Assembly (NCBI GenBank): GCA_022340665.1
Contig: JAJDNM010000141.1
Location: 1-64,000, forward strand
Reading direction: 5' to 3'
DNA from: Acidobacteriota bacterium
GTDB lineage: Bacteria; Acidobacteriota; Thermoanaerobaculia; Thermoanaerobaculales; Sulfomarinibacteraceae
Length of the DNA: 64,000 bases
The position numbers and the translations under genes are program-made. Shown here piece after piece: positions 42,385 through 61,362 of the stretch (positions are counted from its first letter, which is position 1; every line of letters starts with the position of its first letter). The notes beneath the pieces were generated by a model that worked only from the letters and a program-made list of their open reading frames with translations, was not told the origin of the DNA and made no database searches.

Positions 42385-42518
42385 GCAAATACCTTGAAAA
42401 TCGCAGCTGTCACGGCAATTTCGACCACAGTTCCGGGATTGTAACACTGAATATCCGTTCAACTCCAGCGTTACGCCCATGAAACAGAGACTGCACTGGA
42501 AGACCATGGCCTCGATGC

Positions 42519-44373: not shown

Positions 44374-44408
44374 AATTCCTAATTCCTAATTCCTAATTCC
44401 TAATTCCT
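44374..44408. repeat. Five tandem AATTCCT heptamers at the dsrP stop
   Basis: Five exact AATTCCT units (44374-44380, -44387, -44394, -44401, -44408) run from the dsrP stop codon to the terminator stem. The TAG stop (44407-44409) is made partly by the last unit. It is a direct array without an inverted partner. Confidence 0.92.
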
Positions 44409-45567
44409 AATTAGCCTTCAGCTGCCCCCTCACCTCGAGTGCGATCTTGTAAAGGCCGGTCAGCACCAGGGCACCGATCGCATAGATTGCGAGACTGATC
44501 ATGAGCTCCGGTGCGGTCGGCGCGTAATGAACGACCTTGCCAAGCGGATTCGGCACGAAGCCGGCGATGACCATACCGAGACCCTTGTCGATCCACAGCG
44601 AAACTACAACCGCCACGCAGCCAATCTTCAGCCAGCCATAATTCCCGCGGGTCTTCGGATTGATGAGAATGATCAGGGAAATAATCGCCAGAATCGACGA
44701 CAGCAACATCCACGGCGCCAACATATTCTCGCCCTCGAGACCCGTATACAGGAACTGGAAGTGACTCACGTGCTCGGGAATATCACTGTACAGGGCGGTG
44801 AAGATCTCCATGAGCACGAAGAACACGTTGATCGTCATCGCATACGCTACGATCTTCGCCAAGGTGTCGATCGCCTGTTTGCCCGGGTCGAATGTCGAGA
44901 TCCTACGAACGAAGAAGGCCAACAGGAGCAGGATCGCAGGACCCGCGGCGAAGGCCGAGGCCAGAAATCGTGGCGCCAGGATCGCAGTCAACCAGAACGG
45001 CCGCCCCGCCAAGCCCGAGTACAAGAATGCGGTCACCGTGTGGATCGAGACTGCCCACGGTATCGATAGGAGAATGATCGGCTTGAGCCACTTCGGTGGC
45101 GGCTCTTCACGCCGTTCGGACGACAACGTCCAGTGGCTGATGATGATGTTGAGGACGAGGTAGCCACCCAGGGCTACGGTGTCCCAGAACATCATCGAGT
45201 GCGGCGACGGGTAGAGAAAAACGTTGAGGATGCGGTTCGGCATACCCATATCAACGAAGATGAAGGTCATGCACATGATGACTGCGGGTATGGCGAGGAA
45301 CTCGCCCAAGATGGTCATCTTGCCGAACGCCTTGTAGTCATGGAGGTAGTAGGGTAGGACCACCATGACTGCCGACGCGGCGACTCCCACCAGGAAGGTG
45401 AACTGCGCGATATAGAAGCCCCACACGACGTCGCGGCTGAGGCCGGTGATGGTCAGACCTTCGCTGAACTGCCAGAACCAGCACGCCACGCCGCCGCCGA
45501 TGACCAGCAAGAGGGCAAAGATCCAGGACCAGTAGGCCTTGGTACCAGTGAGTGCCTTCTCAAGCAT
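44407..45567 (-). CDS. dsrP: DsrP, NrfD-like integral membrane subunit of DsrMKJOP
   Basis: 386 residues with about ten membrane helices of the NrfD/PsrC type (AYWSWIFALLLVIGGGVACWFW at the first; longer stretches omitted). It exchanges electrons between quinones and the periplasmic DsrO/DsrJ. It overlaps dsrO by 8 bases and has GGAGGG ahead of the ATG. It is the last gene of the dsr train. Confidence 0.95.
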   Translation of the reverse strand: MLEKALTGTKAYWSWIFALLLVIGGGVACWFWQFSEGLTITGLSRDVVWGFYIAQFTFLVGVAASAVMVVLPYYLHDYKAFGKMTILGEFLAIPAVIMCMTFIFVDMGMPNRILNVFLYPSPHSMMFWDTVALGGYLVLNIIISHWTLSSERREEPPPKWLKPIILLSIPWAVSIHTVTAFLYSGLAGRPFWLTAILAPRFLASAFAAGPAILLLLAFFVRRISTFDPGKQAIDTLAKIVAYAMTINVFFVLMEIFTALYSDIPEHVSHFQFLYTGLEGENMLAPWMLLSSILAIISLIILINPKTRGNYGWLKIGCVAVVVSLWIDKGLGMVIAGFVPNPLGKVVHYAPTAPELMISLAIYAIGALVLTGLYKIALEVRGQLKAN

Positions 45568-46408
45568 GACCGCCCTCCTCTTCGAAGACCTCTGCCGCTG
45601 GAGCGAACTCCTGCAGGGTCCTCGGATCCTCGACGATGTAGTAGATCTCCGGCTGAGTCCCGAGGCCCGGCTTCCGCCGAATTGTCAGATGCTCGGTGAG
45701 CAATTGCCTGACCTCGGAATGCGGATCGTTGAGATCGCCAAAGACCATTTCACTGTTTTCGCAAACCTCGACACAGGCCGGCTGCTCTCCACGCGCGAGC
45801 CGCTCGTCGCAGAACGTGCACTTCTCGACCACACCTCGCATCCGCGTCGGATAGGTATTGTCGATGTGAGACAGGTTCGGCGCTTTCCGTGGGTCCTTCC
45901 AGTTGAAGCTCCGCGATCCGTATGGGCAGGCAACCACACAATATCGGCAGCCAATACAGCGGTGCCAGTCCATCATGACGACGCCGTCTGACGCGCGCTT
46001 CCACGTCGCCTCGGTCGGGCAAACGCGAGTGCAGGGCGGATTGTCACAGTGGTTGCACAGGAGCAGGGTCGGCTTCTCCTTGAGATCTTCCCGGATGTAG
46101 TGGAACTCCTGCTCATGAAAGGCGGTCTCGAAGTGCTCGGTCCAGATCCACTTGACCTCGTTCTTCGGGTCGTCCGCGAAATCGGGCACGTTGTGTGCCT
46201 CGTGGCACGCGGTAATGATCTTGTCGAGCAGTTTGTCGTCCTTGGAGAACTTGCGAAGGTCGACGACCAATGCCAGGCGCTTGCCTTCGGTCGCCGGAGG
46301 TTCATGATCCTGGAAAGCCCTCGTCTTCGTGGCCACGGCGGTGGATCCCGCGGCGCCAACCGCCGACAGGCCGGCAAATTTCAGGAATCCTCGTCTGCTG
46401 CTCTTCAT
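45560..46408 (-). CDS. dsrO: DsrO, periplasmic iron-sulfur subunit of DsrMKJOP
   Basis: 282 residues with a twin-arginine signal (SRRGFLKFAGLSAVGAAG), so it is exported folded. Ferredoxin-type clusters are carried by CNHCDNPPCTRVCPT, CIGCRYCVVACPYGS and CTFCDERL...CVEVC, like the PsrB/HybA family. It passes electrons between DsrP and DsrJ. The ATG shares a base with the dsrJ stop (TGATG); the longer frame upstream is not used. Confidence 0.95.
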   Translation of the reverse strand: MKSSRRGFLKFAGLSAVGAAGSTAVATKTRAFQDHEPPATEGKRLALVVDLRKFSKDDKLLDKIITACHEAHNVPDFADDPKNEVKWIWTEHFETAFHEQEFHYIREDLKEKPTLLLCNHCDNPPCTRVCPTEATWKRASDGVVMMDWHRCIGCRYCVVACPYGSRSFNWKDPRKAPNLSHIDNTYPTRMRGVVEKCTFCDERLARGEQPACVEVCENSEMVFGDLNDPHSEVRQLLTEHLTIRRKPGLGTQPEIYYIVEDPRTLQEFAPAAEVFEEEGGHA

Positions 46409-46794
46409 CACTGGCCCCCCCCTGGAATCACGTGGCAGTCCCAGCAGTAGGGGTCGACCGCCGAATAAGTGTGGCAGGCATCGCAAAACTGTTCCTTGTT
46501 GGAGTGGCAGTCGAGGCAGGTATCAGTCAGACTCATCGTGTAGTCCTTGCCCGCCTCCGAGGTGTAGGTGCGGACATCCTCACGAACCACCGTATCCCGC
46601 CATTGATCCAGGAGATGCATGTGGTTCGCCCGCATGTAGTCGGTGGCTTCGACGCACTCGGTTGAGCCGTTGGTCGGTTGCTGGAGTTCGGGCCTGTCCG
46701 GCTGGGCTGCGCTCAGGGCGTTGTACCACAGGGGTGAGGTCGCGAGAATCACGAAGATCGCGAGGCCCGCGACGATCTTGCCGGCGTCATACAT
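46408..46794 (-). CDS. dsrJ: DsrJ, triheme cytochrome c
   Basis: 128 residues with an uncleaved N-terminal anchor (IVAGLAIFVILATSPLW) and three haem motifs: CLDCH (93-97), CDACH (104-108) and CWDCH (117-121). Cys47 corresponds in position to the cysteine proposed as an unusual distal haem ligand in characterised DsrJ. It acts in the periplasm. It overlaps dsrK by 8 bases. Confidence 0.95.
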   Translation of the reverse strand: MYDAGKIVAGLAIFVILATSPLWYNALSAAQPDRPELQQPTNGSTECVEATDYMRANHMHLLDQWRDTVVREDVRTYTSEAGKDYTMSLTDTCLDCHSNKEQFCDACHTYSAVDPYCWDCHVIPGGGQ

Positions 46795-48409
46795 CGTCCT
46801 GCTCCTCCCTCTCCGGATTCAGCGGTTCACCCCGGAGATTATTCTTGCGCTCGCCTTCGCCTTCCATGATCAGAGCGTTGCCTACCAGCTCGTGGATGCC
46901 ACTCACGTCAACGCCCGGAGCCCAGTACTCGCAGAGCGGCGGGAGTGTGGCGCGGTCGATGGCGCATATGCAGGCGAGGCGATTGACGTCGTAGTGATCT
47001 CGTGTCCAGGCCACGGCGTTGCCCCGTGGTAATCCACCACGCATCCGCATCTCCATGTTCTCGTCATTGCCGAGGCCTGCACCGCCAGCACAACAGAAGG
47101 TGTGCTCACGGATCGTGTTTTCCGGCATTTCGAAGAAGTTGTTGCAGACGTTCTTGATCACGTAACGCGGCTCTTCGAAGAGACCCATAGCGCGCGCCGG
47201 ATTGCACGAATCGTGGAACGTCACCCGGACGGCGTCATTGCGGTTCGGGTCGAGCTTGAGCTTGTTGTGGCGAATCAGATCGGCGGTGAACTCGCAGATA
47301 TGGACCATCTTGGTGGACGCCCCGTTTTCGAAAACCGTACCGGTGAACGGAGATTTCGGTACCTCGAGGAAGTCGGCCGGGCCATTCATGGTGCTCATGT
47401 ACTGGTGCATAACCCGCCACATGTGGCCGCACTCACCGCCAAGGATCCACTTCACGCCCAGTCTCTTGGCCTCGTGGTAAATTTTCCAATTGAGCTTCTT
47501 CAGATTCTCTGCCGTGTTGAAGAGTCCGAAGTTCCCGCCGTCCGAGGCGTACGAGCTCAAGGTGTAGTCGAGCCCGATGTGCTTGAAGAGCATGAGGTAC
47601 CCGACGAAGGTGTAGGTCCCGGGGTCGGCGAAATAATCCGCCGAGGGGATCACGAAGAGGACCTCAGCTCCCTTGCGGTTAATCGGCGGATCGAGGGAAA
47701 CCCCGATCGCATCTTCGAGCTCCTCGCACAGAAAGTCGACGTTGTCCTTGTACGTGTGGGGCTGGATGCCGAGATGGTTGCCGGTGCGTTGGCAATTGGC
47801 AACCGGCTCCATGATCCAGTTGATGTTGAGCCCGACGAGGTTCATCAGCTCGCGGGCCATCATCGTGACCTCGGCGGTGTCGATGCCGTACGGGCAGTAG
47901 ACGCTGCAGCGCCGGCACTCGGTGCACTGGAAGAAGTAGTAGTACCACTCCTTCAGCACCTCTTCGGTGAGTTCTCTGCCTCCGGCCAGTGATCCGAGGA
48001 GCTTGCCGGCGGTCGTAAAATCCTGCCGGTAGATGGAGCGCAGGAGCTCCGCACGCAACACCGGCATGTTCTTCGGATCGCCCGAACCGATGAAGAAGTG
48101 ACACTTGTCAGCACAGGCGCCACAGCGAACGCAGACATCCATGAAGATCTTGAGCGAGCGGTACTTCTTCAACAGGTCCTTGAAGCCCTCGTGGATGATC
48201 TGCTTCCAGTTTTCGGGCAGCTTCCAGTCTGCATCCGTCGGCGACCACTCGCGGGGATTCGGCATGCCGAGATACTTGAGGTTCTTCACCGCGGCCGGAT
48301 AGGACCAGGTGCCGCGCCGTGCCTCGAAGTCGACGGCCGGATTCATCCATCTCTTCGGCGGCGGAGTGAGATCGATCTGGATCAGTTCCTGGGGTGCTTT
48401 CTCCGCCAT
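46787..48409 (-). CDS. dsrK: DsrK, HdrD-like iron-sulfur catalytic subunit
   Basis: 540 residues. Two [4Fe-4S] ferredoxin motifs (CVRCGACADKCHFF and CTECRRCSVYCPYGID) are followed by two CCG-type domains (CGHMWR; HDSCNPAR and FCCAGGAGLG) that bind the noncubane cluster used in heterodisulfide-like chemistry. It is thought to reduce the DsrC trisulfide at the cytoplasmic face. AAGGAG precedes the ATG. It follows dsrM by 3 bases. Confidence 0.97.
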   Translation of the reverse strand: MAEKAPQELIQIDLTPPPKRWMNPAVDFEARRGTWSYPAAVKNLKYLGMPNPREWSPTDADWKLPENWKQIIHEGFKDLLKKYRSLKIFMDVCVRCGACADKCHFFIGSGDPKNMPVLRAELLRSIYRQDFTTAGKLLGSLAGGRELTEEVLKEWYYYFFQCTECRRCSVYCPYGIDTAEVTMMARELMNLVGLNINWIMEPVANCQRTGNHLGIQPHTYKDNVDFLCEELEDAIGVSLDPPINRKGAEVLFVIPSADYFADPGTYTFVGYLMLFKHIGLDYTLSSYASDGGNFGLFNTAENLKKLNWKIYHEAKRLGVKWILGGECGHMWRVMHQYMSTMNGPADFLEVPKSPFTGTVFENGASTKMVHICEFTADLIRHNKLKLDPNRNDAVRVTFHDSCNPARAMGLFEEPRYVIKNVCNNFFEMPENTIREHTFCCAGGAGLGNDENMEMRMRGGLPRGNAVAWTRDHYDVNRLACICAIDRATLPPLCEYWAPGVDVSGIHELVGNALIMEGEGERKNNLRGEPLNPEREEQDDV

Positions 48410-48412
48410 GGC

Positions 48413-49411
48413 TCACTCCTTCTCCAACGCATAACCGGACGCCTTCAACTTGTCGCGGAACTCGTCCTCCCACTCGGCATAGGAGTGGCCTTGAACATCC
48501 GGGTTCCACGGATTGATGTGGCGAGCGGTACGGTTGGTGTTGGCGAGGTTGCGGGTCGGGCTTAGGAACACACCCGGTGCGTGCATCAGCTTCGAAAACG
48601 GGAAGTAGATGAGCAACACGCTGACCAGCGCGACGTGCACGAAGTACCACGGGCCGACTCCGACCGGTGAAACCGGCTGGAAGGAGGCCCACCCGGCGAT
48701 AGCCGCCTTGACCTGAACGACATCGATCTTCTCCACATGCCGCATGAGGATTCCGGTCAGAGCGATTCCGATCAGAAGGTAGAGAGCGAAATAGTCGCTC
48801 GGCAGCGAGATGTAGCGAACCTTGTCGTCGTAGATCCTCCGCGCCAGCAGGTAGGCCAGGCCAGCTACCATCAGGAAGGTCGTGATGTAGTACACGGGCA
48901 AGCCGACCTGAAAGAAGCCGTCCACACTCTGCAGCATCTCGACCCACGCCGGCACCGGTTCGATGAAGAACCGGAAATGTCGGAGGACGACGATGAACAT
49001 CGCCCAGTGGAAGGCGAGGGCCGCGGCCCACAGCGCCTTGTCGGCGATGTAGTTCACCTTTTCCTTTTCGGGCAAGATTTCGACCCGGGTATTCCTGAAC
49101 AGCGAACGGAATGCGAGCACCTCCAGGGCCATGCGACCGATCACGCCGGGCAGCCCGCTCGGATTCTCGAGCTCACTGTTTTTGATCCACGGCAGGGATT
49201 TTTCCTGGCCCGTTGTGGTCGGGATCCTGAATGGCACTGGAGATTTCGCCCAGTGCACCACCCGGTAGATGATTCCGACCAGAAACACCGCAAAGGCAAT
49301 TCCCGGGATGATCACCCCGAGCACGAATCGCAGGCCGTCGCCGGCACTCGCACCCACGGCGGCGAGCACACCCACACCGACGACCGCGACAAGAGATATC
49401 AACGCTCCCAT
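48413..49411 (-). CDS. dsrM: DsrM, NarI-like cytochrome b membrane subunit
   Basis: 332 residues, with six or so membrane helices and paired histidines for two b haems (HWAMFIVVLRHFRFF; FVHVALVSVLLIYFPFSKLMH). It links the quinone pool with DsrK. GGAGGG lies upstream of the ATG. The short soluble C-terminus (NPWNPDVQGHSYAEWEDEF) is typical of DsrM. Confidence 0.96.
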   Translation of the reverse strand: MGALISLVAVVGVGVLAAVGASAGDGLRFVLGVIIPGIAFAVFLVGIIYRVVHWAKSPVPFRIPTTTGQEKSLPWIKNSELENPSGLPGVIGRMALEVLAFRSLFRNTRVEILPEKEKVNYIADKALWAAALAFHWAMFIVVLRHFRFFIEPVPAWVEMLQSVDGFFQVGLPVYYITTFLMVAGLAYLLARRIYDDKVRYISLPSDYFALYLLIGIALTGILMRHVEKIDVVQVKAAIAGWASFQPVSPVGVGPWYFVHVALVSVLLIYFPFSKLMHAPGVFLSPTRNLANTNRTARHINPWNPDVQGHSYAEWEDEFRDKLKASGYALEKE

Positions 49412-49463: not shown

Positions 49464-49994
49464 TCAGTCCTGCGGCGCCTTCTCCGAATTCTCCTCGCGA
49501 CGCTCTCGCCATTCCGCGACACGCTCCATGATTCCGACCGATTGGTTGCGGATCTCCCGCGCTCGAATTGCCCACATCTGCTCGCGACACGTCATATAGA
49601 CGTCGAACGCGTGCATGCCCAGCCGCTCGATTCGCGCATCGAGAACGGCCAGAGACCTCGCGCCTTCAACCCCCGTCTCTCCGATGACATCCCTGGCGAG
49701 TTGCTTGAGAGCGAAAACAAAGCCGAGCGAAGCTGACGGTGAATACTCTTGGACCGCCCGTACCCTGATCACTCGATCCAGAGCCGGAGTGAGTTCCGAG
49801 GGCTCCACGCCCTCGAAGAGGCCGTCCAGCAACTCCGCCAGGCTTTCACGAATGCGGGCGCCAACCGGGTTGGCGAATGGATCCGCCTTCGACCGAAGGA
49901 ACTTTGCCGTCTCCTCCGGATAGGCGTCGATGACAATCGCGATCCAACGCTCAAGAATCTTGTCCCGGTGATCTACGAGCACACGGTCGAGCAT
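49464..49994 (-). CDS. RsbRD N-terminal domain (RsbT co-antagonist-like) protein in the dsr operon
   Basis: 176 residues, all-helical, matching the RsbRD-N family (LERWIAIVIDAYPEETAKF, DPFANPVGARIRESLAELL). It lacks the STAS domain found in stress-signalling RsbR. Genes of this family often sit just before dsrM in sulfate reducers, but their role is unknown. The ATG follows a G-run. It lies between the hairpin downstream of dsrC and dsrM, so it is the first gene of the membrane-complex half. Confidence 0.85.
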   Translation of the reverse strand: MLDRVLVDHRDKILERWIAIVIDAYPEETAKFLRSKADPFANPVGARIRESLAELLDGLFEGVEPSELTPALDRVIRVRAVQEYSPSASLGFVFALKQLARDVIGETGVEGARSLAVLDARIERLGMHAFDVYMTCREQMWAIRAREIRNQSVGIMERVAEWRERREENSEKAPQD

Positions 49995-50068: not shown

Positions 50069-50386
50069 TTACACGCAGCCCGTGGGTTTCGGCAGGCCAG
50101 CAACCTTACAGGCGCCCTTGGCGGGGCCGGACGGAAAGAGCTCGTAGATCTCCTTGAGCTGGAAGCCCGTCTGCTTACAGAGCTTGCGGATCATCGGCGC
50201 CACGCCGAACTGCAGATAGTAGTCCCGCAGGTAGTTGACAACCTTCCAGTGGTCATCGGTGAGATTGTCCACACCCTCGGTGGAACCGAGGGCGGCAGCG
50301 ACGTCCTCGTTCCACTTTTCCGGCTCCTGCATGAAACCGTCCTCGTCCACCTCGATGGAAACATCTCCATGCTCGAATATGGCCAT
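50069..50386 (-). CDS. dsrC: DsrC, sulfur-carrier protein
   Basis: 105 residues. Both redox cysteines of true DsrC are present: Cys93 (KGACK) and Cys104, penultimate (TGCV), 11 residues apart, as needed to form the DsrC trisulfide. The core has LTDDHWKVVNYLRDYYLQFGVAPMIR in outline. AAAGGAGG lies six bases before the ATG at 50386, an ideal site for high expression. It follows the TPR gene by one base. Confidence 0.98.
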   Translation of the reverse strand: MAIFEHGDVSIEVDEDGFMQEPEKWNEDVAAALGSTEGVDNLTDDHWKVVNYLRDYYLQFGVAPMIRKLCKQTGFQLKEIYELFPSGPAKGACKVAGLPKPTGCV

Positions 50387-50387
50387 T

Positions 50388-50981
50388 TCAGTCCTCCTTT
50401 GTTTTTTCCGGGGCCTCGGCCCCGCTGATTTCAATCAGTGAAATCCGTTGGGATCGTTGTTTCTTGAGGTTTGCCTTTTCCATAGCTTTCATGAAGTCTT
50501 GCGTTGGCCGATGGCCGAGCTCAAGGGCCCGTCCCAGGTGACGCTCGGCAGCCCCGAGGTTGTTCATCGCCAAATGGCCCACCGCCGCGTAGTAGTGAGC
50601 GGCTGCGTGATCGCGCTCGAGCGCGATCACCCTCTCGTTGCACCGAACCAGATTTTCTGGATCGTTGAGATACAAATACGCCTGGCCCATGTTGTAGTGC
50701 ACGATCGGGAGATCATCGCGAAGCTTTGCCGCGGCCTGGTTGGCTTCGAGGCAGCCCTGGAACTCCCAACGCATCAGACGTACTCCACCGAGGTTGACCC
50801 ACGCCTGGACCATCGTCGGGTCGATGTCGAGAGCCTTCAGATACGCTTCCTCGGCCTGCTTGACGCGACCCGACACCGTGTAGGCGAGCCCGAGATTGTA
50901 ATGCGAGGACGCCCTGTCCGGGTGATCCTCCACGTCTTGCTGGCAACGCTCCAGACGGTGGCGTTGACTCTCATTCTCCAT
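50388..50981 (-). CDS. TPR-repeat protein in the dsr operon
   Basis: 197 residues with four or five tetratricopeptide repeats (SSHYNLGLAYTVSGRVKQAEE; AWVNLGGVRL; VHYNMGQAYLYL; AHYYAAVGHLAMNNLGAAE) and a basic/acidic tail. It has no signal peptide, so it is cytoplasmic. The ATG at 50981 or GTG at 50987 overlaps the HEAT-repeat gene end. It probably scaffolds assembly of or contacts between Dsr proteins; this is inferred from position only. Confidence 0.88.
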   Translation of the reverse strand: MENESQRHRLERCQQDVEDHPDRASSHYNLGLAYTVSGRVKQAEEAYLKALDIDPTMVQAWVNLGGVRLMRWEFQGCLEANQAAAKLRDDLPIVHYNMGQAYLYLNDPENLVRCNERVIALERDHAAAHYYAAVGHLAMNNLGAAERHLGRALELGHRPTQDFMKAMEKANLKKQRSQRISLIEISGAEAPEKTKED

Positions 50982-51483
50982 CCACACACTCCCTGTTCAC
51001 GGTGAGCAGGTAGTCGAGACATTCCTGCTCTCCGGTATCGTCAGCTTTGATCGCCAACAGGCGGTCACGGACCTCTTCGATCAGCTCGGGGGCGGCCTCG
51101 GCAATCCTGCACAGCGCGTTCAGAATTCCGGACTTGAGACCCTCGTCCCACAAGTAGGCGGTCATGGGGCCAACAAACGGCTCCACCAGATCCGGCGATC
51201 GCCGTCCGATTTCACCGACTGCCGCCAACATGGGACCGCCGTTGGTCGCCGATTCGTCGTTGATCGCCCACAGAGCCCGCCGCAGCACCTCACGACCGAG
51301 ATCGGGATGAACGGCAGCAGCGGCGCCAAGAGCGACCGCCGCACGTTGTTGAATCTCGGGATCGGAGTCCCACAGCCGGCCCTGGAGGAAACGAGCAGCC
51401 GAGGGGTTCTCGCCCACCAGCTCTTCAAGCCCTCGAGAGTTGCCGTGGCGTAACAGCTCCATCACCCGCTCCTTCAACCGCAT
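50971..51483 (-). CDS. HEAT-repeat protein in the dsr operon
   Basis: 170 residues of paired helices (SDPEIQQRAAVALGAAAAVHP; NGGPMLAAVGEIGRRSPDL; GILNALCRIAEAAPELIE). The start is the ATG at 51483, overlapping the dsrN end by 10 bases; the longer frame is a dsrN shadow. HEAT or PBS-lyase-like repeat proteins recur in dsr loci of sulfate reducers. Function is unknown; with the TPR protein it forms a solenoid pair ahead of dsrC. Confidence 0.82.
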   Translation of the reverse strand: MRLKERVMELLRHGNSRGLEELVGENPSAARFLQGRLWDSDPEIQQRAAVALGAAAAVHPDLGREVLRRALWAINDESATNGGPMLAAVGEIGRRSPDLVEPFVGPMTAYLWDEGLKSGILNALCRIAEAAPELIEEVRDRLLAIKADDTGEQECLDYLLTVNRECVDGE

Positions 51484-52904
51484 ACGGCCGTCGACCCGCC
51501 CCGCTCCGCCGCAAACCGAGCGGCCAGGGCGAGAAAGCCGTCTGCCCACCCGGGGGTGGCCCCGGCGTGGAGATGAAGATACGAGGCGAATACCCGTCCC
51601 TTCGAAATGCCGTCGCGATCGTCTCCGATCCCGGTGCCGCGCTCGAGCCGGAGCACACCGTTCTGGCGATCCGATCCTCCCGTCAGACGCGAGTAGTGAA
51701 ACTCGTGACCTACGAGCCGGGTACCGGCCGGGAAGAACGGATTGTCACGATCGACGACCGCCACCTCGTAACCGTGGCCTTGAGGAGTCGCACATTGCTC
51801 GACAGCCAGGTCAAGAACCCCGGCCATCGGATGCGGCACACCGTCCACCACGAGCTCGCGAGCCAGATACATCAGTCCCGCGCACTCGGCGAAAACCGGC
51901 ATCCCAACGTCTACACGGGCCCGGATGCTGGCCGTGAAATCTGTGTTGGATCCCAGGCGTGCCGCGTGCACTTCCGGGAAACCGCCACCGATATACAGGC
52001 CGTCGACTTCCGGGAGCTCGCTGGCGCTTTCCGGATCGACCGGCACGAGCTGTACGCCGGCCAATCTCATTCGCTCCAGGTTCTCCGCGTAGTAGAAGCT
52101 GAAGGCCTTCCCTTCGAGGTAGCCGATGGTCACCGGCACCTGCTCGACCACGGACTCAGCTGGCATCAGCTCCAGCTCGGGCGCCCACTGGGCGACCGCC
52201 AGCAGACGGTCAATGTCCACGCCGTCAGCCACTGCCTTGGTGGCGCGTTGGATGGACTCCTCGGGCGCTGGGTGCTCGGCTGCCGTCACCAAACCGAGGT
52301 GTCGGCCGGGAAGTGGATCATCGCCCTTGATCCGGCGGATCGCACCGAGTACCGGGGTCCCGGCGATGCCGGCTACCGCTTCTCGGACGATGTTCTCGTG
52401 GCGTCCACAGCCAACCCGGTTGAGTATCACCCCTGCCAGATCGACCTCGGGATCGAGGGCCCGACAGCCCATGACCATCGCCGCCGCCGTGCGAGTCATT
52501 TTGGTGCAATCGAGCACCAGAACGACAGGCGCCGCCAGCCGTCGGGCCAACATGGCTGTCGAATGGCTCCCCTCGACGTCGACGCCGTCGAAAAGGCCAC
52601 GGTTGCCTTCCACCAGGATGAGGTCTGCGTCGTTTGCGGCGGTGGCAAGCGAACGGGCCATGGCCTCGTCTTTCATGAGAAAGGTGTCGAGGTTGCGGCA
52701 GGTCGAGCGGGCGGCGACACCGAGCCACGCAGTGTCGATGTAGTCCGGCCCCTTTTTGAACGGCCGCACTTTCACGCCCCGGTCGGCCAGCGCACGCGCA
52801 ATCCCCAGGCTCACCAGGGTCTTGCCGCTGTCACCGGAAAGACCGGCGACCACCAGCCGTGGGACATTAACCCTCATCGCGATACCGCCCGACCCAGCCC
52901 TCAC
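51474..52904 (-). CDS. dsrN: DsrN, cobyrinic acid a,c-diamide synthase-like amidase
   Basis: 476 residues. The N-terminal CobB/CbiA ATPase has VAGLSGDSGKT (P-loop) and FKKGPDYIDT. The C-terminal glutamine amidotransferase-like domain has GGGFPEVHA, the catalytic Cys in FAECAGLMYL and His in SYLHLH. DsrN is thought to amidate siroheme to the form bound by DsrAB. The GTG at 52904 overlaps the dsrL stop (GTGA); an ATG at 52877 is possible. Confidence 0.95.
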   Translation of the reverse strand: MRAGSGGIAMRVNVPRLVVAGLSGDSGKTLVSLGIARALADRGVKVRPFKKGPDYIDTAWLGVAARSTCRNLDTFLMKDEAMARSLATAANDADLILVEGNRGLFDGVDVEGSHSTAMLARRLAAPVVLVLDCTKMTRTAAAMVMGCRALDPEVDLAGVILNRVGCGRHENIVREAVAGIAGTPVLGAIRRIKGDDPLPGRHLGLVTAAEHPAPEESIQRATKAVADGVDIDRLLAVAQWAPELELMPAESVVEQVPVTIGYLEGKAFSFYYAENLERMRLAGVQLVPVDPESASELPEVDGLYIGGGFPEVHAARLGSNTDFTASIRARVDVGMPVFAECAGLMYLARELVVDGVPHPMAGVLDLAVEQCATPQGHGYEVAVVDRDNPFFPAGTRLVGHEFHYSRLTGGSDRQNGVLRLERGTGIGDDRDGISKGRVFASYLHLHAGATPGWADGFLALAARFAAERGGSTAVCG

Positions 52905-54640
52905 TCACCCACGATGTAACCGCAAGGGCATTCTTCCCAGCACTTCTTGCAGCCGTCGCATTTCTCAATGTTCTTGATAATGAAAAAGTGTCCAGGGGAC
53001 ACCTGCGGTTCCTTGCCAAAGACGTTGTTCTGGCAGTACATCCAGCAGTTCTCGCAGCCGAAGCATTTGCCGCAACTGAAGCAGCGGGAAAGCTCCACCA
53101 GAGCATCTTCCGCGGTCAAACCGAGATCGACCTCATCGAACGGGTTCGCGAGACGATCTTCGGGTGCCTTGACCTGACGTTTCGTGCGATCGATCGGTTC
53201 GTACCAGTCGATCTTGAGCTTGTCGGCTCGGATCATCTCACCGTTCGATTCTTTCGGCAGCTCGGTGCCTTGAAGGTGGGAGTGGATGGCCAGGGCTGCC
53301 TTGCGCGCCTGTCCGATCGAGGTCGTGGCGATGCCGAGGTTGATGTTGTCGCCCCCGGTCCACACTCCGTCGACGCCAGTGAAGCCCCAATCGTCACCGT
53401 TGAGCCAGCCGTCTCCGAGTTCGTCGGAGTTCATCGCGCCGAGGTCCGGTTTCTGGCTGACGGCGGTGATCATGGTCTCCAGCGGCAGCTCGTAGGTGTC
53501 GCCTTCGATAGGCACCGGGCGTCGGCGGCCCGAATCGTCGGGCTCGCCGAGCTCCATGCGTTGCACGATCATCGCCTTGAGAGCGCCTTCTTCGTCGCGC
53601 ATGATCTCGATCGGCGCCGCGAGATATTCGATCTTGATGTCTTCCTCGAGGGCCTCCTCGATCTCGCGCTCGATGGCCGGCATTTCGGCGCGGGTGCGAC
53701 GATAGAGGATCGTCACCTCGGCGCCCAGCTTCGACGCCATTGCCGCCGAATCGGCGATCAGACGCTTCGAGACACGAGCCGCGTCAATGGCTGTGTCGCC
53801 GCCGCCAATCACCACCACGTTGGTGCCGATGTCGACCTTCTTGCCGGAATTGGCATGGTTGAGGAACTCGGTGCCGGTCCAAATGCCGGGTCCGTCTTCA
53901 CCGGGGATCCCCATGTTCTTACCCTGGTGGGCGCCAATGGCGACGTAGACCGCTGAGTACTCCTTGCGGATCTCTTCCCAGGTCACGTCCTTGCCGATCT
54001 TGGTGTCGCACTTGAGTTCCACCCCGAGGTCGACGATGCGTTGAATCTCGGCGTCGAGCACCTCGCGCGGCAACCGGTAGACCGGGATTCCGTAGCGGAG
54101 CATGCCGCCAGCTTTGGGCAGGCTCTCGAAGACCGTCACGTTGTAGCCCCGACGGGCGAGCTGATAGGCACAGGACAGACCCGATGGGCCGGCCCCGACG
54201 ACCGCGATCTTCTGGTCCTTGGGACCCTCGCCTTCGATCGGCTCCATCTTGAGCCCTTTGTCGAGGGCGTAATCGCCGATGTACCGCTCGACCGAGTTGA
54301 TGCCGACTGGCCCGTCTTTCTGGCCTCGGTTGCACCCCGTTTCGCAGGGATGGGGACACACTCTCCCCATCACCGATGGGAAGGGATTGGTCTCCATCTC
54401 GATGCGCCAAGCCTGTTCACAGGCCTCGTCGAGGCTCAGACCGAGCTTTTCGCGCAAACTGATAACCGTCAGCCAGCCGCGGATGTCGTTGCCGCTCGGG
54501 CAGTTGCCGGTACACGGCGGCAGGCTCTCGACGTAGCGCGGGCGCAAGGACGAAATCTGCGATCCGGCCCCACCCCCGCTGGAAAGCCGGGCCTTCATCT
54601 TGCTCGACTTGTCCTTGTCCTTCTTCTTTAATAGACCCAT
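52901..54640 (-). CDS. dsrL: DsrL-like NAD(P)H-dependent iron-sulfur flavoprotein
   Basis: 579 residues, homologous to the glutamate synthase small subunit. Cys43, 47, 95, 99 and 103 (CTGNC; CPHPCETGC) form the N-terminal cluster region. FAD binds at VVGAGPSG (148-154) and NAD(P)H at IGGGDTAIDAAR (about 287). The C-terminal 65 residues carry two ferredoxin-like cysteine sets (CFSCGKCFGCENC; CDGCKKCWEECPCG). In sulfur oxidisers DsrL is the NAD(P)H-linked partner of DsrAB. Here it lies among reductive-type genes including dsrD, so it may feed electrons to DsrAB or run in reverse. A generic GltD paralogue is less likely given the position and ferredoxin tail. Confidence 0.88.
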   Translation of the reverse strand: MGLLKKKDKDKSSKMKARLSSGGGAGSQISSLRPRYVESLPPCTGNCPSGNDIRGWLTVISLREKLGLSLDEACEQAWRIEMETNPFPSVMGRVCPHPCETGCNRGQKDGPVGINSVERYIGDYALDKGLKMEPIEGEGPKDQKIAVVGAGPSGLSCAYQLARRGYNVTVFESLPKAGGMLRYGIPVYRLPREVLDAEIQRIVDLGVELKCDTKIGKDVTWEEIRKEYSAVYVAIGAHQGKNMGIPGEDGPGIWTGTEFLNHANSGKKVDIGTNVVVIGGGDTAIDAARVSKRLIADSAAMASKLGAEVTILYRRTRAEMPAIEREIEEALEEDIKIEYLAAPIEIMRDEEGALKAMIVQRMELGEPDDSGRRRPVPIEGDTYELPLETMITAVSQKPDLGAMNSDELGDGWLNGDDWGFTGVDGVWTGGDNINLGIATTSIGQARKAALAIHSHLQGTELPKESNGEMIRADKLKIDWYEPIDRTKRQVKAPEDRLANPFDEVDLGLTAEDALVELSRCFSCGKCFGCENCWMYCQNNVFGKEPQVSPGHFFIIKNIEKCDGCKKCWEECPCGYIVGE

Positions 54641-54674: not shown

Positions 54675-55118
54675 TCACGCGAGCTTCGACATGTGCGCCT
54701 TGAGCTTCTCCAGCTCGCCGAGGATGCCGTCGTGCTTTTCCTCGTCGGTCAGCAGGTAGTTGAGCAGGATTTTGTGTACCGGCTCGGTGGTTTCTTCGAG
54801 GAGCTCTTTCGCCAGCTCGATGGTCTGCCGCTCGAGCTCATCGTGCGCCTCGATCTGACCCCAGACCTCGGCCAGGTCTTCGGGTGACAGCTTGACCGGC
54901 GCCCTGGTGATCATGTCGATCATGAACTGCTGCACGCGGTGGTGCTGCACCGAGTCGTTGCGGATGATCTCCATGATCTGACGGATCAGCAGGTTGTCGG
55001 TCTTTTCCATGATTTGGGCGGTCGTCTCGATCGCATCGCGCTCGATGCCCTGCCACTGGCGCAGCACATCGACGGTCTTCGCCGCCCGCTCCGGCCCAGA
55101 GAGTTTGTCTCGTGCCAT
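54675..55118 (-). CDS. Ferritin-like (rubrerythrin-type) helical protein in the dsr operon
   Basis: 147 residues, four-helix bundle. Metal-type positions are visible in GIERDAIETTAQIM, DSVQHHRVQQF, EAHDELERQT and DEEKHDGILGEL (Glu/His pairs in each helix). It is shorter than rubrerythrin and lacks the rubredoxin tail. The ATG at 55118 follows GGAGG. It may store iron for, or protect, the many Fe-S clusters of this operon; that is inference. Confidence 0.8.
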   Translation of the reverse strand: MARDKLSGPERAAKTVDVLRQWQGIERDAIETTAQIMEKTDNLLIRQIMEIIRNDSVQHHRVQQFMIDMITRAPVKLSPEDLAEVWGQIEAHDELERQTIELAKELLEETTEPVHKILLNYLLTDEEKHDGILGELEKLKAHMSKLA

Positions 55119-55140
55119 AGCGTCCTCCGTGTGTTCTCTC

Positions 55141-55190
55141 AGCGCCCAAACACCCCCCCCGGGCACACGCCCAAGGGGGAGATTGGCGCT
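55141..55190 (-). other. Intercistronic stem-loop between dsrD and the ferritin-like gene
   Basis: Nested pairing: AGCGCC (55141-55146) with GGCGCT (55185-55190), a C5/G5 stem inside, and GGGC (55161-55164) with GCCC (55169-55172) around a 4-base loop. The outer stem reaches the dsrD stop codon. It probably protects or separates the dsrABD message from the downstream genes. Confidence 0.65.
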
Positions 55191-55426
55191 CATTCTTTTG
55201 GTGGAAGCGTCACGTAGCTGCCGCCCGCGTACTTGTAGACGCAGCGGCCGGAGTCGATGAGCTGGCGCAGGGCTTTCTTGCACATGCGCTTGTCGACATT
55301 GTCCTCACCGAACTGTTCAATCATCGCCTTTGAGACGTCCATCGGCTTCAGATCTTTCTTGCCGTAGGTCGATTTCACGAGCTCGAACATGGCGTCTTCG
55401 ATCTGATCAATCGTGACTTCAGGCAT
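55190..55426 (-). CDS. dsrD: DsrD, winged-helix activator of DsrAB
   Basis: 78 residues, as in other sulfate reducers (TIDQIEDAMFELVKSTYGKK, KPMDVSKAMIEQFG, SYVTLPPK). Despite its winged-helix fold it is known as an activator of DsrAB sulfite reduction. It is widely used as a marker of the reductive direction. It follows dsrB by 8 bases. Confidence 0.95.
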   Translation of the reverse strand: MPEVTIDQIEDAMFELVKSTYGKKDLKPMDVSKAMIEQFGEDNVDKRMCKKALRQLIDSGRCVYKYAGGSYVTLPPKE

Positions 55427-55434
55427 GATGCCTC

Positions 55435-56514
55435 CTAGTGGCGCAGTTGCGCCGTCCGCTTAAAGGTCTCGCCCGCGTGGGTGAAATCGTCGATGTGATA
55501 TTTCGTGAAGTCCTGACCGATGAGCTCGAAGAACTTCGGCCAGCCGATGCGATCGATCCATTCACCCATGCGTTCGTGTTTGCGTGCGTTGGCGGCGTAG
55601 GTCTCGACGATGTTCTTGACCGCCTCGACGACCTCCGGCCAGCGCGGCGGATTGTTGGGTAGGTACGGGACCGCCAGCTTCGAGAACTTCGGAGCCACGC
55701 GCGAGTTCGATACCTTGCCGCCGACCCAGATCGAGATCCCATCGGTATCGGCGTTGTTGATGGTGCAGGCCGGGCAGACCGTATAGCAGTTGCCGCAGTA
55801 CATGCACTGCTCTTCGACGATCTCCACCGACTGCTTTCCGTCGACCGTCGTCGGACGGATGGCACCCGTCGGGCAGGATGCGATGAGGTTCGGAATCTCA
55901 CACATTTTCGGCAGGTCGTCATGGTTGATGACCGGCGCGCGGGTGTGTACACCGAGGATGGCGATATCGGAGCAGTGGACAGCACCGCACATGTTGAGGC
56001 AGCAGGCGTAGGCAATGCGCGTCTTCGCCGGCAGGCGTTTTTCGCCCGAGAAGTAAGGGAAGAGCTCGTCCATGACGCATTTCACGACACCAGAAGCGTC
56101 CGATGCCGACGAGTGGCAGTGGACCCAGCCCTGGGTGTGGACGATGTTGGAGAGCTCGGCGCCGAGGCCGCCGACCGGGAAGCCGTACTCCTCGATCTCC
56201 TTGATCAGAGGTTCGATCTTGGCCTCGTCGGTGAGCAGGAATTCGACGTTGTTGCGGCTCGTCCAACGGAGGTGGCCGTCGCAGTACTTGTCAGCGATGT
56301 CGCAGAACTTGCGAATCGATGTGATCGCGAGCAGCCGCGGCGAGGCGCAGCGGACGGTGAAAAGCTTGTCGCCCGACTCGGCCACGTGGACCATGACACC
56401 GGGTTTGATGATTTCGTGATAGTCCCACTTCCCGTAGTTCTTCTTGATGACCTCGGGCAGGAACTGCTCGTAATGTGGGGGTCCGATATCGGTTTGACGT
56501 TCGAATTCAGGCAT
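55435..56514 (-). CDS. dsrB: Dissimilatory sulfite reductase beta subunit
   Basis: 359 residues. It contains [22 protein letters not shown], split here as GWVHCH and DASGVVKC, the siroheme/[4Fe-4S] motif [17 protein letters not shown] and the ferredoxin insertion ([22 protein letters not shown]). With DsrA it reduces sulfite, passing sulfur to DsrC. It starts 14 bases after dsrA. Confidence 0.98.
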
Positions 56515-56528
56515 GAGTTCCTCCTTCC

Positions 56529-57734
56529 TCAGTCTTCGAAGATTTCGTCGTCGAAGAAGATGTACGGGTTCGTGCGCGGGTGCATCACCATCTCGGGCAC
56601 CGGGTCGAGCCCGATCTCCTCGAGGAAGTTGGAGAGGCCAACGCGCTGGATGAACTCACCCGTACGCTCGCGGTTCTTGCCGTGCTCACCCCAGAGGTCC
56701 CAGATCGCCTCGGTGAGCTCCTTGAGATCCTCGTAATCCGACTCGGGATCCATTTCGAGGAACGGCACGAAAACCGATGACAGCAGTGCGCCACCGATGA
56801 TCGGCGCCTTCGCGCCGATGAGGATCGTCGCACCACGTTCCTTGCCGGGCTTGAGCGCCTTCGGCATCAGGTTGATGCAGTGCATGCACTTGACGCAGTT
56901 GGAGTTGTCGATATCTAGAGTCTTGCCATCCCACTCCATGCACTTGGTCGGGCAGAGATCGCAGACCTCGGCCTGGACATCAGTACCGTTCTTGTCGTAC
57001 TCGGCCACCTTGGCGTTGTCGACCTGGATGTCGTCCTTCCAGACACCGATCACCGAGCAGTCCGAACGCGCGATCGAGGCCACGCAGTCGTTCGGGCAAC
57101 CGGCGAACTTGAACTTGTACTTGTAGGGGAAGAACGGCCGGTGCAGCTCGTCCTGGAAGGTCTGGGTGATGTTGTAGCAGGCATCCAGGGTGTCGTAGCA
57201 GGCCCACTCGCAGCGCGCGGGGCCGACACAGCAGCTCGGCGTACGCATGTTGGAGCCGGAGCCGCCGAGGTCGAAGCTCGGATGGTCTTCCTTTTCGGCG
57301 CTGAGCTCGGCGAAACAGGGCTCGAGGCTCTCGGTGCTGCCGCCAAGAAAGACGATGTCACCGGTCGAGCCGTGCATGTTGGTCAGGCCCGAACCGTGCT
57401 TCTCCCAGATGTCGCACAGGTGGCGCAACGCCTTGGTGGTGTAGAACCAAGCCGACGGTTGATTGACACGGTAGGTATGGAACTCCCGGACGTTGGGGAA
57501 TTCTTCCGGGAGATCGCAGTAGCGACCGATCACGCCACCGCCGTAGCTCATCACACCGACGATTCCACCGTGTTTCCAGTGGCTGATGTGCTCCTCGTAG
57601 GAGCGTTCGAGGATCCCGAGCACGTCATTCGACATCGGGTTGTGCTCGGCCTCCTTCTTGATTTCCTTGACGAAGCTCGGCCACGGCCCCTTTTCGAGCT
57701 CGTCAAGCAGCGGCGTTTTCCTCTTTTCTGTCAT
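56529..57734 (-). CDS. dsrA: Dissimilatory sulfite reductase alpha subunit
   Basis: 401 residues from the ATG at 57734, which has AAGGAG five bases upstream. Siroheme-cluster cysteines lie in [15 protein letters not shown] (about 182-196) and [15 protein letters not shown], with a ferredoxin domain ([24 protein letters not shown]). The catalytic partner is DsrB. It is the second gene of the operon, 67 bases behind the YeiH-like gene. Confidence 0.98.
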
Positions 57735-57801
57735 GGCCACTCCTTTCTCAATCACATAATTGGTTGCTGGGGCAAAACGAAATCCACTTCAAGGTTCAGC
57801 C

Positions 57802-59457
57802 TCACATCAGGGCACTGATGTTCGACCAGAACCTGGAGAACACCACAGTTGACAGGAAATATCCGAGCGGGACGTTGACCATGACACCGATGGTGAACGC
57901 CCAGAACGGCTTGAGACCAAAGGTCAGAAGATCGGCGAATCGCGTCGACAGGCCGATACACAGGAAGCACAGCACAAACGCCCATGAGCGCAAATTCTTG
58001 ATCGGAGTGATCACTTTCTTTCGAAGGTCACTTTCGAACCAGTTCGACGAAAACCGCAGCTGTTTGAACGCGCCCAATTTGTCGTTGCGATCGGGATCGC
58101 CTGGCGGGATTGCGGCCTTGAGTGATTCGTACTCCTGGAGCGTCATTGACTCGCCGCCGTTTGCGTATTCAAGACCCTCCGCAGTGATCGTCACCCGGTC
58201 GGCGAGCTCGGGCGGCACCGTGTAGTTCGAGAAGTCCGCGTCGTACACGATCTTCTCGGCCGAGCTTTTGTATGTGCCTTCGAATGAAGCAGTTCCAACC
58301 CAATCGGCAGGTGGCGTCGAGCTGACAATGGTCATGATGATCGAGGCGAGGAAGAAACCGATCACGAACTTGGGAAATCGCTCCCAGATGATGCCAGCGC
58401 CAACCGCCTGGTCAGAGGCTTCCCCCTTCTCCCAGAAAACCACCGATACCACCGCCAGGATCAGGCACCAGATGCCGATCCAGATGTCGCGGCCGATGAC
58501 CTTCATGAGGGTGAAGGTATTGATCGGATCGTCGGGGTTGAGCATCTCGCCATTCACGCCGCGGATGGCGCCCGACTCGATGACGTCGGCGAGTTCGGCC
58601 ACGACCGCAAAGCCGGCAGCATCGGCGAATTCCGATGTTCCGGTCCACGCTCCCGCTTCTCCCGGAGATATCGGAACCGGAACCATCCACTTCACAATCA
58701 TGCTGAGCGCCAGGATCATGACGATCGCCCAGACCGAGACGATGGCGATCGAGATCGCGATGTGGTCCTTCTTGGCCTTGACAGCACCGCCTACGGCAAT
58801 CGAGGCCGAGACGCCACACACCGCCCCGCCAGCGCCGAGGACGGCACCGAACTGTTTGTCGAGACCGAAGAGCCTGGTCGCCGCGAGGAAGATCGTGAGC
58901 CAGGTGCAGACCGAGACAATGGTTGCCTGCAAAAACGCGATCGGGCCAGCGTTGAAAATCAACGTCAGGGGAAGGGTCGCGCCGAGCAGGACGATGCCGG
59001 TCTTGATGTAGTACTCGGTCAGCAGGCAGGTCTGGAACCACTCGGGCAGCTGGAAGAGATTGCCGATGATCAGGCCGATGATCAGGGCCAACAACGGTGC
59101 ACCCAGATGAAGCGTCGCCTTCACGAAGGTGTTGGACGAGAGGTAGAAGATCGCGGTCGAGCCGAGGAAGAGAATCACGAATCCCGGAACGAACTGACGG
59201 ACATTGCGCCCCATCACTGCCATCGAGATGGTGAAAACCGTCCCGAAGAGGGTGAAGATGATCAGGTAGTCCGGCAGGTGTTTCGTGAAATCGGAAATCA
59301 GGCCATCAATTGTCGACCAGCTTCCCGGTTTGACCGCCCACCCGGCAATCGTTCCACCGGTGAAATAGGCTGCTAACGCGAGGAGCACGATGCCGAGGCC
59401 GAGCCATACCGCCCAGTAATCCTCGGTCTTCCAGAGTTTTTGGAGCCCCTCGTGCAC
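57802..59457 (-). CDS. Long-form YeiH/UPF0324 membrane protein (putative sulfur-anion exporter family)
   Basis: 551 residues with 11-12 membrane helices. The family signature GAGGAVCGVSASIAVGGAVKAKKDH (given in part: AVCGVSASIAVGG) lies near residue 225. The usual YeiH protein is about 340 residues; this one has two soluble insertions (about 275-330 and 400-490). The GTG at 59457 lies seven bases after GGGAGG and 34 bases from the predicted sigma-54 start site. As leader gene of the dsr train it could move sulfite, sulfonate, sulfide or another sulfur compound; direction and substrate are unproven. Confidence 0.82.
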   Translation of the reverse strand: MHEGLQKLWKTEDYWAVWLGLGIVLLALAAYFTGGTIAGWAVKPGSWSTIDGLISDFTKHLPDYLIIFTLFGTVFTISMAVMGRNVRQFVPGFVILFLGSTAIFYLSSNTFVKATLHLGAPLLALIIGLIIGNLFQLPEWFQTCLLTEYYIKTGIVLLGATLPLTLIFNAGPIAFLQATIVSVCTWLTIFLAATRLFGLDKQFGAVLGAGGAVCGVSASIAVGGAVKAKKDHIAISIAIVSVWAIVMILALSMIVKWMVPVPISPGEAGAWTGTSEFADAAGFAVVAELADVIESGAIRGVNGEMLNPDDPINTFTLMKVIGRDIWIGIWCLILAVVSVVFWEKGEASDQAVGAGIIWERFPKFVIGFFLASIIMTIVSSTPPADWVGTASFEGTYKSSAEKIVYDADFSNYTVPPELADRVTITAEGLEYANGGESMTLQEYESLKAAIPPGDPDRNDKLGAFKQLRFSSNWFESDLRKKVITPIKNLRSWAFVLCFLCIGLSTRFADLLTFGLKPFWAFTIGVMVNVPLGYFLSTVVFSRFWSNISALM

Positions 59458-59501
59458 CTGTTCGCCTCCCACACGCCGCACACCCAACCCGACGTCAACG
59501 G

Positions 59502-59517
59502 TGCAACCCCTGTGCCA
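59502..59517 (-). promoter_or_regulatory. Sigma-54 promoter of the yeiH-dsr operon
   Basis: On the minus strand TGGCAC (59517-59512), 5 bases, TTGC (59506-59503) and A: a full match to the -24/-12 consensus with exact spacing. The predicted start is near 59491, followed by GGGAGG (59470-59465) and the GTG at 59457. The adjacent upstream gene encodes a sigma-54 activator. Confidence 0.88.
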
Positions 59518-59609
59518 GAGCGAGCCCTCGTGAAGGATCCCTCAAACTGTTGACGAGAGATGACTTTGATAGAAGAGGAGTGAACCGGAAGGGCGCCCGG
59601 AGGGACCGG

Positions 59610-59627
59610 TGTTACGGAAGCGTAACA
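59610..59627. promoter_or_regulatory. Candidate enhancer (activator-binding dyad) for the dsr sigma-54 promoter
   Basis: TGTTACG (59610-59616), GAAG, CGTAACA (59621-59627): perfect 7-bp arms. Its centre is about 127 bp upstream of the predicted start, the usual place for a bacterial enhancer-binding protein site. No second copy was found. Confidence 0.6.
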
Positions 59628-59667
59628 ACGCTCGGGAGGCACCATCGACATCGCTTTCACAGCGGAC

Positions 59668-59691
59668 CCGAATTCCGAATTCGGAATTCGG
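59668..59691. repeat. 24-bp perfect palindrome of heptad units upstream of dsr operon
   Basis: CCGAATTCCGAA followed by its exact complement, with a 7-base period on each side. It is the same sequence family as the arrays at def/dnaJ and rfbB/porin. It lies about 190 bp upstream of the predicted sigma-54 start, so it could also be a protein site. Confidence 0.85.
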
Positions 59692-59883
59692 ACCCCGTCG
59701 GCGGCAGCGACGTGCGGCCGCTGGCCGAAAAGGAAGGGCGGACGGTGGTCGGCCACCCGGCCGCTCGCTGGTGACGGTGCGACGCGACGGCCGAAGGCCG
59801 TCAGCAATTCGGAATGCCACCACCCCACCCATTTCGAAACCGAAAACCCAGAGAAGCCAAGGGATTCCTAGGTATTTGGAATT

Positions 59884-60000: not shown

Positions 60001-61362
60001 TCAGGTCTTTCGAGTACGGCCGTCCGATTGCGGTGTCTCGATGTCGAGGTCCTTGATCTTGCGGAAGAGCGTGCTCGGGTGGATCCCGAGCTCCTCTGCC
60101 GCCACCTTCCGGTTGCCGGCATTGCGGCGCAGGGCATCGGTGATGTGGACGGACTCGAGTTCACGGAGAGTCATCCCTGTTGAGGCGCTTCCCGGTGTCC
60201 TTTCCGAATCTTGTCCCAGCTCGGGCGGTAGGTGTCGGGATTCGATCATGCCCCCCCGGCAGAGCACGAAGGCGCGTTCGATGATGTTCTCGAGCTCCCG
60301 GGCATTACCCGGATAATCATGCTTCATCAGCAGAGCCAGCACCCCGTCCGAGACCCCGATCACGTCTTTCCCTTGCAGCCGATTGAAGCGGCCGATGAAA
60401 TGATCGATCAGGAGGGGAATGTCCTCACGCCGCTCTCGAAGGGTCGGCAGCTCGAGCCGTATGACGTTGATACGGTAGAAGAGATCTTCGCGAAAGGACC
60501 CATCTTCGACGAGCTTGTTGAGGTCGCGATGGGTCGCGACCACGACGCGCACGTCGGCCTCGACCGACTCGACACTACCCAACGGCTCGTACACCCTCTC
60601 CTGCAGGACTCGCAACAGACGCACCTGCATGGCCGGCGAAATATCGCCGATCTCATCGAGGAAGATCGTCCCCCCCTCGGCGAGAGCAAATCGACCGGGT
60701 TTGTCGCTCTTTGCGTCGGTGAAGGCACCGGCCTTGTGGCCGAAGAGTTCTGATTCGAGCAGAGTGTCGGGGAGGGCGCCGCAATTGATGGCCACGAATG
60801 GCTTTCCCTGGCGTGGCGAGAGATCGTGAATGGCGCGGGCGAAGAGCTCTTTTCCGGTGCCGCTGGCGCCGTGAATCACCACCGTGCTGTCGCTTTCAGC
60901 CACCGCCGGCAACAACCCGAACAACTCCCGCATGACGCGGCTGCGGCCGATGATATCGCCGAGCGAGAACCTGCCCTCGAGCTCTTTCTTGAGCTCTTCC
61001 ACCTGGCTGAGATCGCGGAAGGTCTCGACGCCGCCCACGACCCGGCCGCTCTGATCGCGCAGCACGGCGGTTGAAATCCGCACCGGCACCTTACGGCCCC
61101 TGGCGTCGAGAATCATGATCGCCCGATTGACGACCGGCTCACCCGAGCTCAATGTGTAATTCAGTACACAACCGGAGCCGCAGATACTGGCCCTGAAGAC
61201 GTCGCAACAACGGACACCGATGGCCTGGTCCCGCCGAATTCCGGTGATGCGCTCGGCCGCCCGATTGAAAGACGTGATCCGCCACTCGCGATCGACGGTG
61301 AACACACCGTCGGCGACGCTATCGAGAACGGTTTGCGCGACAATCGGCTCGTCGGTAGACAT
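60001..61362 (-). CDS. PAS-domain sigma-54-dependent activator next to the dsr operon
   Basis: 453 residues. The N-terminal PAS domain (8-120) carries Cys52, 53, 61 and 65 (RCCDVFRASICGSGC). The AAA+ domain is intact: GASGTGKE (Walker A), GAFTDA (a known variant of the GAFTGA loop), GGTIFLDEIGDI (Walker B) and FREDLFYRIN. The Fis helix-turn-helix is RKVAAEELGIHPSTLFRKI. With no receiver domain it senses directly through PAS, or is controlled by the divergent kinase by another route. It is the obvious candidate activator of the sigma-54 promoter at 59502-59517 and may control its own gene. Confidence 0.93.
   Translation of the reverse strand: MSTDEPIVAQTVLDSVADGVFTVDREWRITSFNRAAERITGIRRDQAIGVRCCDVFRASICGSGCVLNYTLSSGEPVVNRAIMILDARGRKVPVRISTAVLRDQSGRVVGGVETFRDLSQVEELKKELEGRFSLGDIIGRSRVMRELFGLLPAVAESDSTVVIHGASGTGKELFARAIHDLSPRQGKPFVAINCGALPDTLLESELFGHKAGAFTDAKSDKPGRFALAEGGTIFLDEIGDISPAMQVRLLRVLQERVYEPLGSVESVEADVRVVVATHRDLNKLVEDGSFREDLFYRINVIRLELPTLRERREDIPLLIDHFIGRFNRLQGKDVIGVSDGVLALLMKHDYPGNARELENIIERAFVLCRGGMIESRHLPPELGQDSERTPGSASTGMTLRELESVHITDALRRNAGNRKVAAEELGIHPSTLFRKIKDLDIETPQSDGRTRKT

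Follow-up and report, generated by a model that had tools for sequence, protein, structure and literature searches.

A candidate sigma-54 regulon of dissimilatory sulfate reduction in Thermoanaerobaculales-type Acidobacteriota, and the kinase/regulator pair that may control it

With a probability of about 0.72, we read the promoter ahead of the dsr cluster in the 64,000-nt stretch of DNA analysed here (hereafter the window) as putatively heading a sigma-54 regulon through which dissimilatory sulfate reduction would be activated in Thermoanaerobaculales-type Acidobacteriota, by way of a sensor kinase and response regulator encoded at 37752-40597. The material for this reading, that is, the sequences, their conservation, their spacing, the co-distribution of site and regulator, the intact protein domains and the presence of rpoN, is observed. 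The sulfate-reduction regulon is judged real and apparently undescribed; the mechanism is standard, the regulon new. The window belongs to an assembly of 3.95 Mb, whose closest named relatives are MAGs of the Thermoanaerobaculales (Acidobacteriota).

The sigma-54 -24/-12 promoter, TGGCACAGGGGTTGCA (59502-59517, minus strand), includes TGGCAC-N5-TTGC at 59517-59503 of the same strand with exact spacing, and its GG and GC lie in the canonical 12-bp register. The GG at -24 and the GC at -12 that do not vary in sigma-54 promoters (TGGCAC-N5-TTGCW) are kept in relatives, as are register and spacing. Further upstream on the same strand, at 59610-59627, is a perfect dyad, TGTTACG-CTTC-CGTAACA, with the core GTTAC-N6-GTAAC, which we regard as a putative activator palindrome; its core begins 109 bp before the -24 element, and its centre is located about 127 bp before the predicted transcription start near 59491. 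Sites of NtrC-family activators are palindromes about 100-200 bp upstream of -24/-12 promoters, which depend on such activators. Downstream of the promoter there is a GGGAGG Shine-Dalgarno sequence (59470-59465), followed by a GTG start codon at 59457. The promoter, dyad, Shine-Dalgarno sequence and GTG described in a preliminary description of this DNA are thus all present in the window sequence. That description had also held that absence of rpoN would speak against sigma-54 control, and a profile search found the gene (PF04552 on contig C125 of the window genome, E = 1.2e-64). A promoter search of the intergenic gap ahead of the first gene gave no match to a sigma-70-type promoter. Strong inverted repeats, CCGAATTCCGAATTCGGAATTCGG and ACGGCCTTCGGCCGT, were also seen at 59660-59810, between the upstream PAS-domain gene and the promoter.

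The following genes downstream of the promoter are on the minus strand, in the order YeiH-like gene, dsrA, dsrB, dsrL-like gene, cobB, dsrC, RsbRD_N-domain gene, dsrMKJOP, cysG, kinase and regulator. The first, which has the GTG start, encodes a YeiH-like (PF03601) putative sulfur-anion transporter (57802-59457), and is followed by dsrA (56529-57755; TIGR02064), dsrB (55435-56514; TIGR02066), a dsrL-like NAD(P)H oxidoreductase gene (52901-54640; NF009410 and Pfam matches, the dsrL name being given by position), a dsrN-like gene for a cobyrinic acid a,c-diamide synthase (CobB; 51474-52904) and dsrC (50069-50386; PF04358, TIGR03342). Then come the RsbRD_N-domain gene at the head of dsrMKJOP (49464-49994), dsrM-dsrK-dsrJ-dsrO-dsrP themselves (44407-49411; NF038037, NF045796, NF045797, NF045798), with CxxCH motifs in DsrJ (46408-46794), and the siroheme synthase gene cysG (40594-42507). 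The "complete dsr supraoperon" of the preliminary description therefore holds as far as A, B, the L-like and N-like (CobB) genes, C, M, K, J, O and P are concerned, but the first gene encodes a YeiH-like transporter and is not a dsr gene. Two further proteins of the cluster, encoded at 54675-55283 (202 aa) and 50971-51549 (192 aa), have no Pfam match, and relatives of both occur in most related clusters. The RsbRD_N-domain gene heads dsrMKJOP in every related cluster that reaches that far, and in several relatives a separate sigma-54 box precedes it; a pattern search of the window genome found none before rsbRD-dsrMKJOP. Two near-palindromes before cysG, at 42430 and 42470, were rejected as boxes, with no -24/-12 element nearby.

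Taken by itself, a -24/-12 match occurs at chance frequency: one-mismatch matches numbered 3 per window against 3.4 expected, and genome-wide there were 160 matches versus 215 for the reversed control, i.e. no enrichment. The exact palindrome has 3 copies in the 3.95-Mb genome versus 1 in the control. We searched for a composite box, defined as GTTAC-N6-GTAAC about 110 bp before TGGCAY-N5-TTGCW, with a permitted spacing of 98-122 bp. In a search of 149 genomes from the class, this box in its exact form had 28 matches, spread over 19 genomes, and the reversed pattern gave none; the pairing of the two elements at this spacing is not due to chance. In 22 of the 28 boxes the distance from core to -24 element is 108-113 bp, although 98-122 bp was permitted, and the spacer bases, which were left free in the search pattern, are biased to R-N-G-G-G. 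Among the nearest relatives, promoter and palindrome recur behind differing upstream genes, mostly 108-112 bp apart, and the reversed-sequence control over 1.39 Mb of these relatives' sequence yielded no such pair.

The targets of the box, named by BLAST against the window proteins and by reading of the translations, are dsrA (11 boxes), YeiH-like genes (7), rsbRD-dsrMKJOP (5), DsrK-like genes (2), sat (1), a cytidylate-kinase-like gene (1) and an MFS transporter gene (1). That is, 26 of the 28 exact boxes in the 149 genomes precede sulfur-dissimilation genes, and the last two targets have no known sulfur role. In three of the genomes with a box before the YeiH-like gene, dsrA has a separate box. 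Of the 149 genomes, 19 have a detected dsrA, and an exact box is present in 18 of these, as opposed to 1 of the 130 genomes without detected dsrA, and this one is 83% complete. All 18 dsrA-containing genomes of the order have the exact box; the 19th of the class shows a perfect palindrome 114 bp before GGGCAC-N5-TTGCT, which has one mismatch. The box was absent from the other dsr-carrying Acidobacteriota examined, for example Solibacteraceae and the MAG CO124 (lineage L077). Two genomes of the genus also have the palindrome, with TGGCACGCTTCTTGCG or TGGCACGCATTTTGCT, close to a gene whose product is cytidylate-kinase-like and has a CBS domain (contig C10 of the window genome, 42767-42895, locus L082; and L099). 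Two other candidates were rejected as boxes: the palindrome at position 101332 of contig C141, before a DsrMK-like operon, which has no -24/-12 element in range, and the near-site TGACACAGGGGTTGCA on contig C20, which is unpaired with any palindrome.

The preliminary description had called for a search of relatives for the dyad and the -24/-12 motif, and both proved to be kept before dsr and apr genes and, in some genomes, before sat. The window genome has its aprBA genes on another contig; there AGGCACAGCTCTTGCT precedes aprB by 89 bp, and three near-palindromes lie further upstream. Both elements, each with at most one mismatch, precede aprB in 17 of the 17 genomes with enough sequence, whereas of 700-bp windows drawn at random from dsr loci, with true boxes left in, at most 2.7% had both in order. 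The spacing of the apr elements is unlike that at dsr, at roughly 80-400 bp. As regards sat, the box is found in three genomes of family f2, while most f1 and some f2 sat genes are without it; sat of the window genome was not found with the query used. Control is not confined to a single promoter: a sigma-54-type promoter separate from that at the dsr cluster stands before aprBA. The same two-part box on sulfate-respiration genes points to one regulator.

The leading candidate for binding the palindrome, as judged from sequence comparison, is the NtrC-type response regulator encoded at 37752-39128 (minus strand), at the distal end of the dsr cluster. It has a REC domain, a sigma-54 AAA+ domain with an intact GAFTGA loop and a Fis-type HTH. 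The gene next to it (39125-40597, minus strand) encodes a sensor histidine kinase with HAMP, HisKA and HATPase_c domains, its proposed partner, and in 20 of the 21 loci compared the kinase and regulator genes adjoin each other. Orthologs of the regulator with at least 70% identity were found in 17 of the 19 dsrA-containing and 17 of the 19 box-containing genomes, counts in which related lineages enter more than once, such that Fisher values are not probabilities of independent events. Background paralogs reach at most 47% identity, leaving a gap between orthologs and paralogs. The putative link between regulator and palindrome is drawn from their co-distribution and from a shared recognition helix, LG(I/V)SRKTLWEK, found in each of the 17 orthologs with sequence that extends this far. 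Two dsrA-containing genomes lack a detected ortholog (G118, 92% complete; G125, 74%), and four genomes have an ortholog without detected dsrA (G108, G110, G111 and G123; 65-84% complete); these mismatches may be assembly gaps.

Established knowledge of the NtrC family suggests how binding, phosphorylation, transcription and signal might be connected. Sigma-54 RNA polymerase would sit closed on TGGCAC-N5-TTGCA; a membrane kinase would sense an outside signal and phosphorylate an NtrC-type response regulator, which would bind GTTAC-N6-GTAAC about 110 bp upstream, at a near-fixed distance; and the phosphorylated regulator would oligomerise and open the promoter through its GAFTGA loop. This pair would most likely be the kinase and regulator at 37752-40597. 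The signal is likely extracytoplasmic because of the predicted sensor domain of the kinase, which is sCache_3-like and scores just below the Pfam cut-off. Because both elements precede aprBA in the order, dsrMKJOP and sat in some relatives, and YeiH-like transporter genes, a single signal could turn on the whole pathway together.

The preliminary description had given the role of dedicated activator to the product of the next gene upstream, a PAS-AAA+-HTH enhancer-binding protein (60001-61362, minus strand), which would then bind the dyad. The position of the gene suits such a role: it occupies the next gene position both in the window genome and in loci L002, L003 and L005, ends 374 bp from the palindrome in the window, and lies close before the palindrome in L003 and L005. 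The protein was said to be an intact sigma-54 activator, and PAS, Sigma54_activat (AAA+) and HTH_8 domains are indeed present, but the contact loop reads GAFTDA, not GAFTGA. Its recognition helix, IHPSTLFRK, differs from the helix that the regulator has in common with Planctomycetota (see below). Moreover, orthologs with at least 69% identity occur in only 4 of the 19 dsrA-containing genomes, whereas the palindrome is found in all of them, with unchanged spacing where the PAS gene is missing, including those without such a gene beside dsr. We consider this assignment unlikely. The same contig encodes a further PAS-AAA+-HTH activator outside the window (C141, 73487-74830; loci L131 and L184), which shares 69% identity with the 60001-61362 protein.

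About equally improbable, in our estimate, is that a third enhancer-binding protein binds the palindrome while the kinase/regulator pair of the cluster serves other genes. The genome has many sigma-54 activators (62 first-look candidates), two box-containing genomes are seemingly without the pair, and two boxes lie ahead of non-sulfur genes, all of which would suit a third activator; against it stand the strong co-distribution of box and regulator, the invariant recognition helix and the linkage of the regulator to dsr in two phyla. A further explanation takes the dyad for a hairpin in RNA or for the upstream gene's terminator, and the -24/-12 match for chance. The dyad does fold well as RNA (-12.3 kcal/mol, z = -2.95), and the chance frequency of lone -24/-12 matches noted above is in keeping with the second half of this explanation. 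However, the dyad has no T tract and is absent from terminator predictions, its conservation jointly with the promoter excludes chance, and the promoter-palindrome spacing is kept behind differing upstream genes. The arms are fixed letters while the six middle bases are free, with pairing little beyond chance (11, 9 and 5 of 28), and for this reason the dyad behaves as a DNA site; we give the hairpin explanation almost no weight.

The closest of the characterised systems are NtrC-family two-component sigma-54 regulons such as NtrBC, ZraSR and AtoSC, in which a regulator of the REC-AAA+(GAFTGA)-Fis HTH type likewise has a HAMP/HisKA kinase as its neighbour. The best named relatives of the regulator by model score are AtoC, NtrC and ZraR, all below the equivalog cut-offs (bits against curated cut-off: AtoC 476/714, ZraR 418/760, NtrC 427/559), and the closest solved chains are those of NtrC-family proteins, 4l4u and 1ny5. 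To our knowledge, neither GTTAC-N6-GTAAC nor dsr, apr, sat or YeiH-like targets are known for any of the three systems. Little is known of how sulfate respiration is turned on, above all outside Desulfovibrio. Although the organisms of the order are mostly uncultured Acidobacteriota, the question of control becomes directly testable once a site is defined, a regulator and its sensor kinase are proposed and targets are listed; in addition, the box predicts regulon members from sequence alone, such as the YeiH-like transporter.

The predicted regulon of HcpR, a CRP/FNR-type factor of Desulfovibrio, comprises sat and apsAB, explicitly without dsrAB (PMC545781). Like the box described here, it is a predicted transcription-factor regulon over sulfate-activation genes, but it differs in protein family, promoter (-35/-10 type), predicted action (repression) and site (TTGTGA-N6-TCACAA; PMC545781), a palindrome unlike the conserved GTTAC-N6-GTAAC. 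The sigma-54 regulome of Desulfovibrio vulgaris likewise concerns a sulfate reducer with sigma-54 and enhancer-binding proteins, but dsr and sulfite go unmentioned in its main text and, as far as that text goes, no comparable pathway-wide regulon is described (PMC4641369). For the acidobacterial MAG CO124, a switch between oxygen and sulfate has been reported, together with an increase in dsr genes under anoxia (PMC10564751). Sigma-54 control of dsr or apr was not found in the literature searched, in which subscription papers were thinly covered, so that novelty is provisional.

A parallel exists in Planctomycetota, where dsr-linked regulators carry LLGISRKRLWEK, near-identical to the acidobacterial recognition helix. 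GTTAC-N6-GTAAC is found before dsrA there as well, being the sole exact copy in the 4.5-Mb genome G151, with a weaker -24/-12 element, TGGCGTACGGTTTGCG, about 220 bp after the palindrome. Overall, the planctomycetotal regulators are 46-48% identical to the acidobacterial one, no closer than paralogs, and since the two sets are not joined with confidence in the tree, their descent from a common regulator is not demonstrated. It is a tentative possibility, which we hold to be somewhat less probable than its converse, that Acidobacteriota and Planctomycetota share a master switch dedicated to dissimilatory sulfate reduction, of the two-component sigma-54 type, which was carried with the dsr cluster between the phyla. 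The box geometry was also encountered at a non-sulfur gene in two planctomycetotal genomes (L222, 1501-1644; L223), in which tandem GTTAC-N6-GTAAC palindromes 19 bp apart lie 108-109 bp before TGGCAC-N5-TTGCG or TGGCAT-N5-TTGCT, ahead of a gene for a secreted protein.
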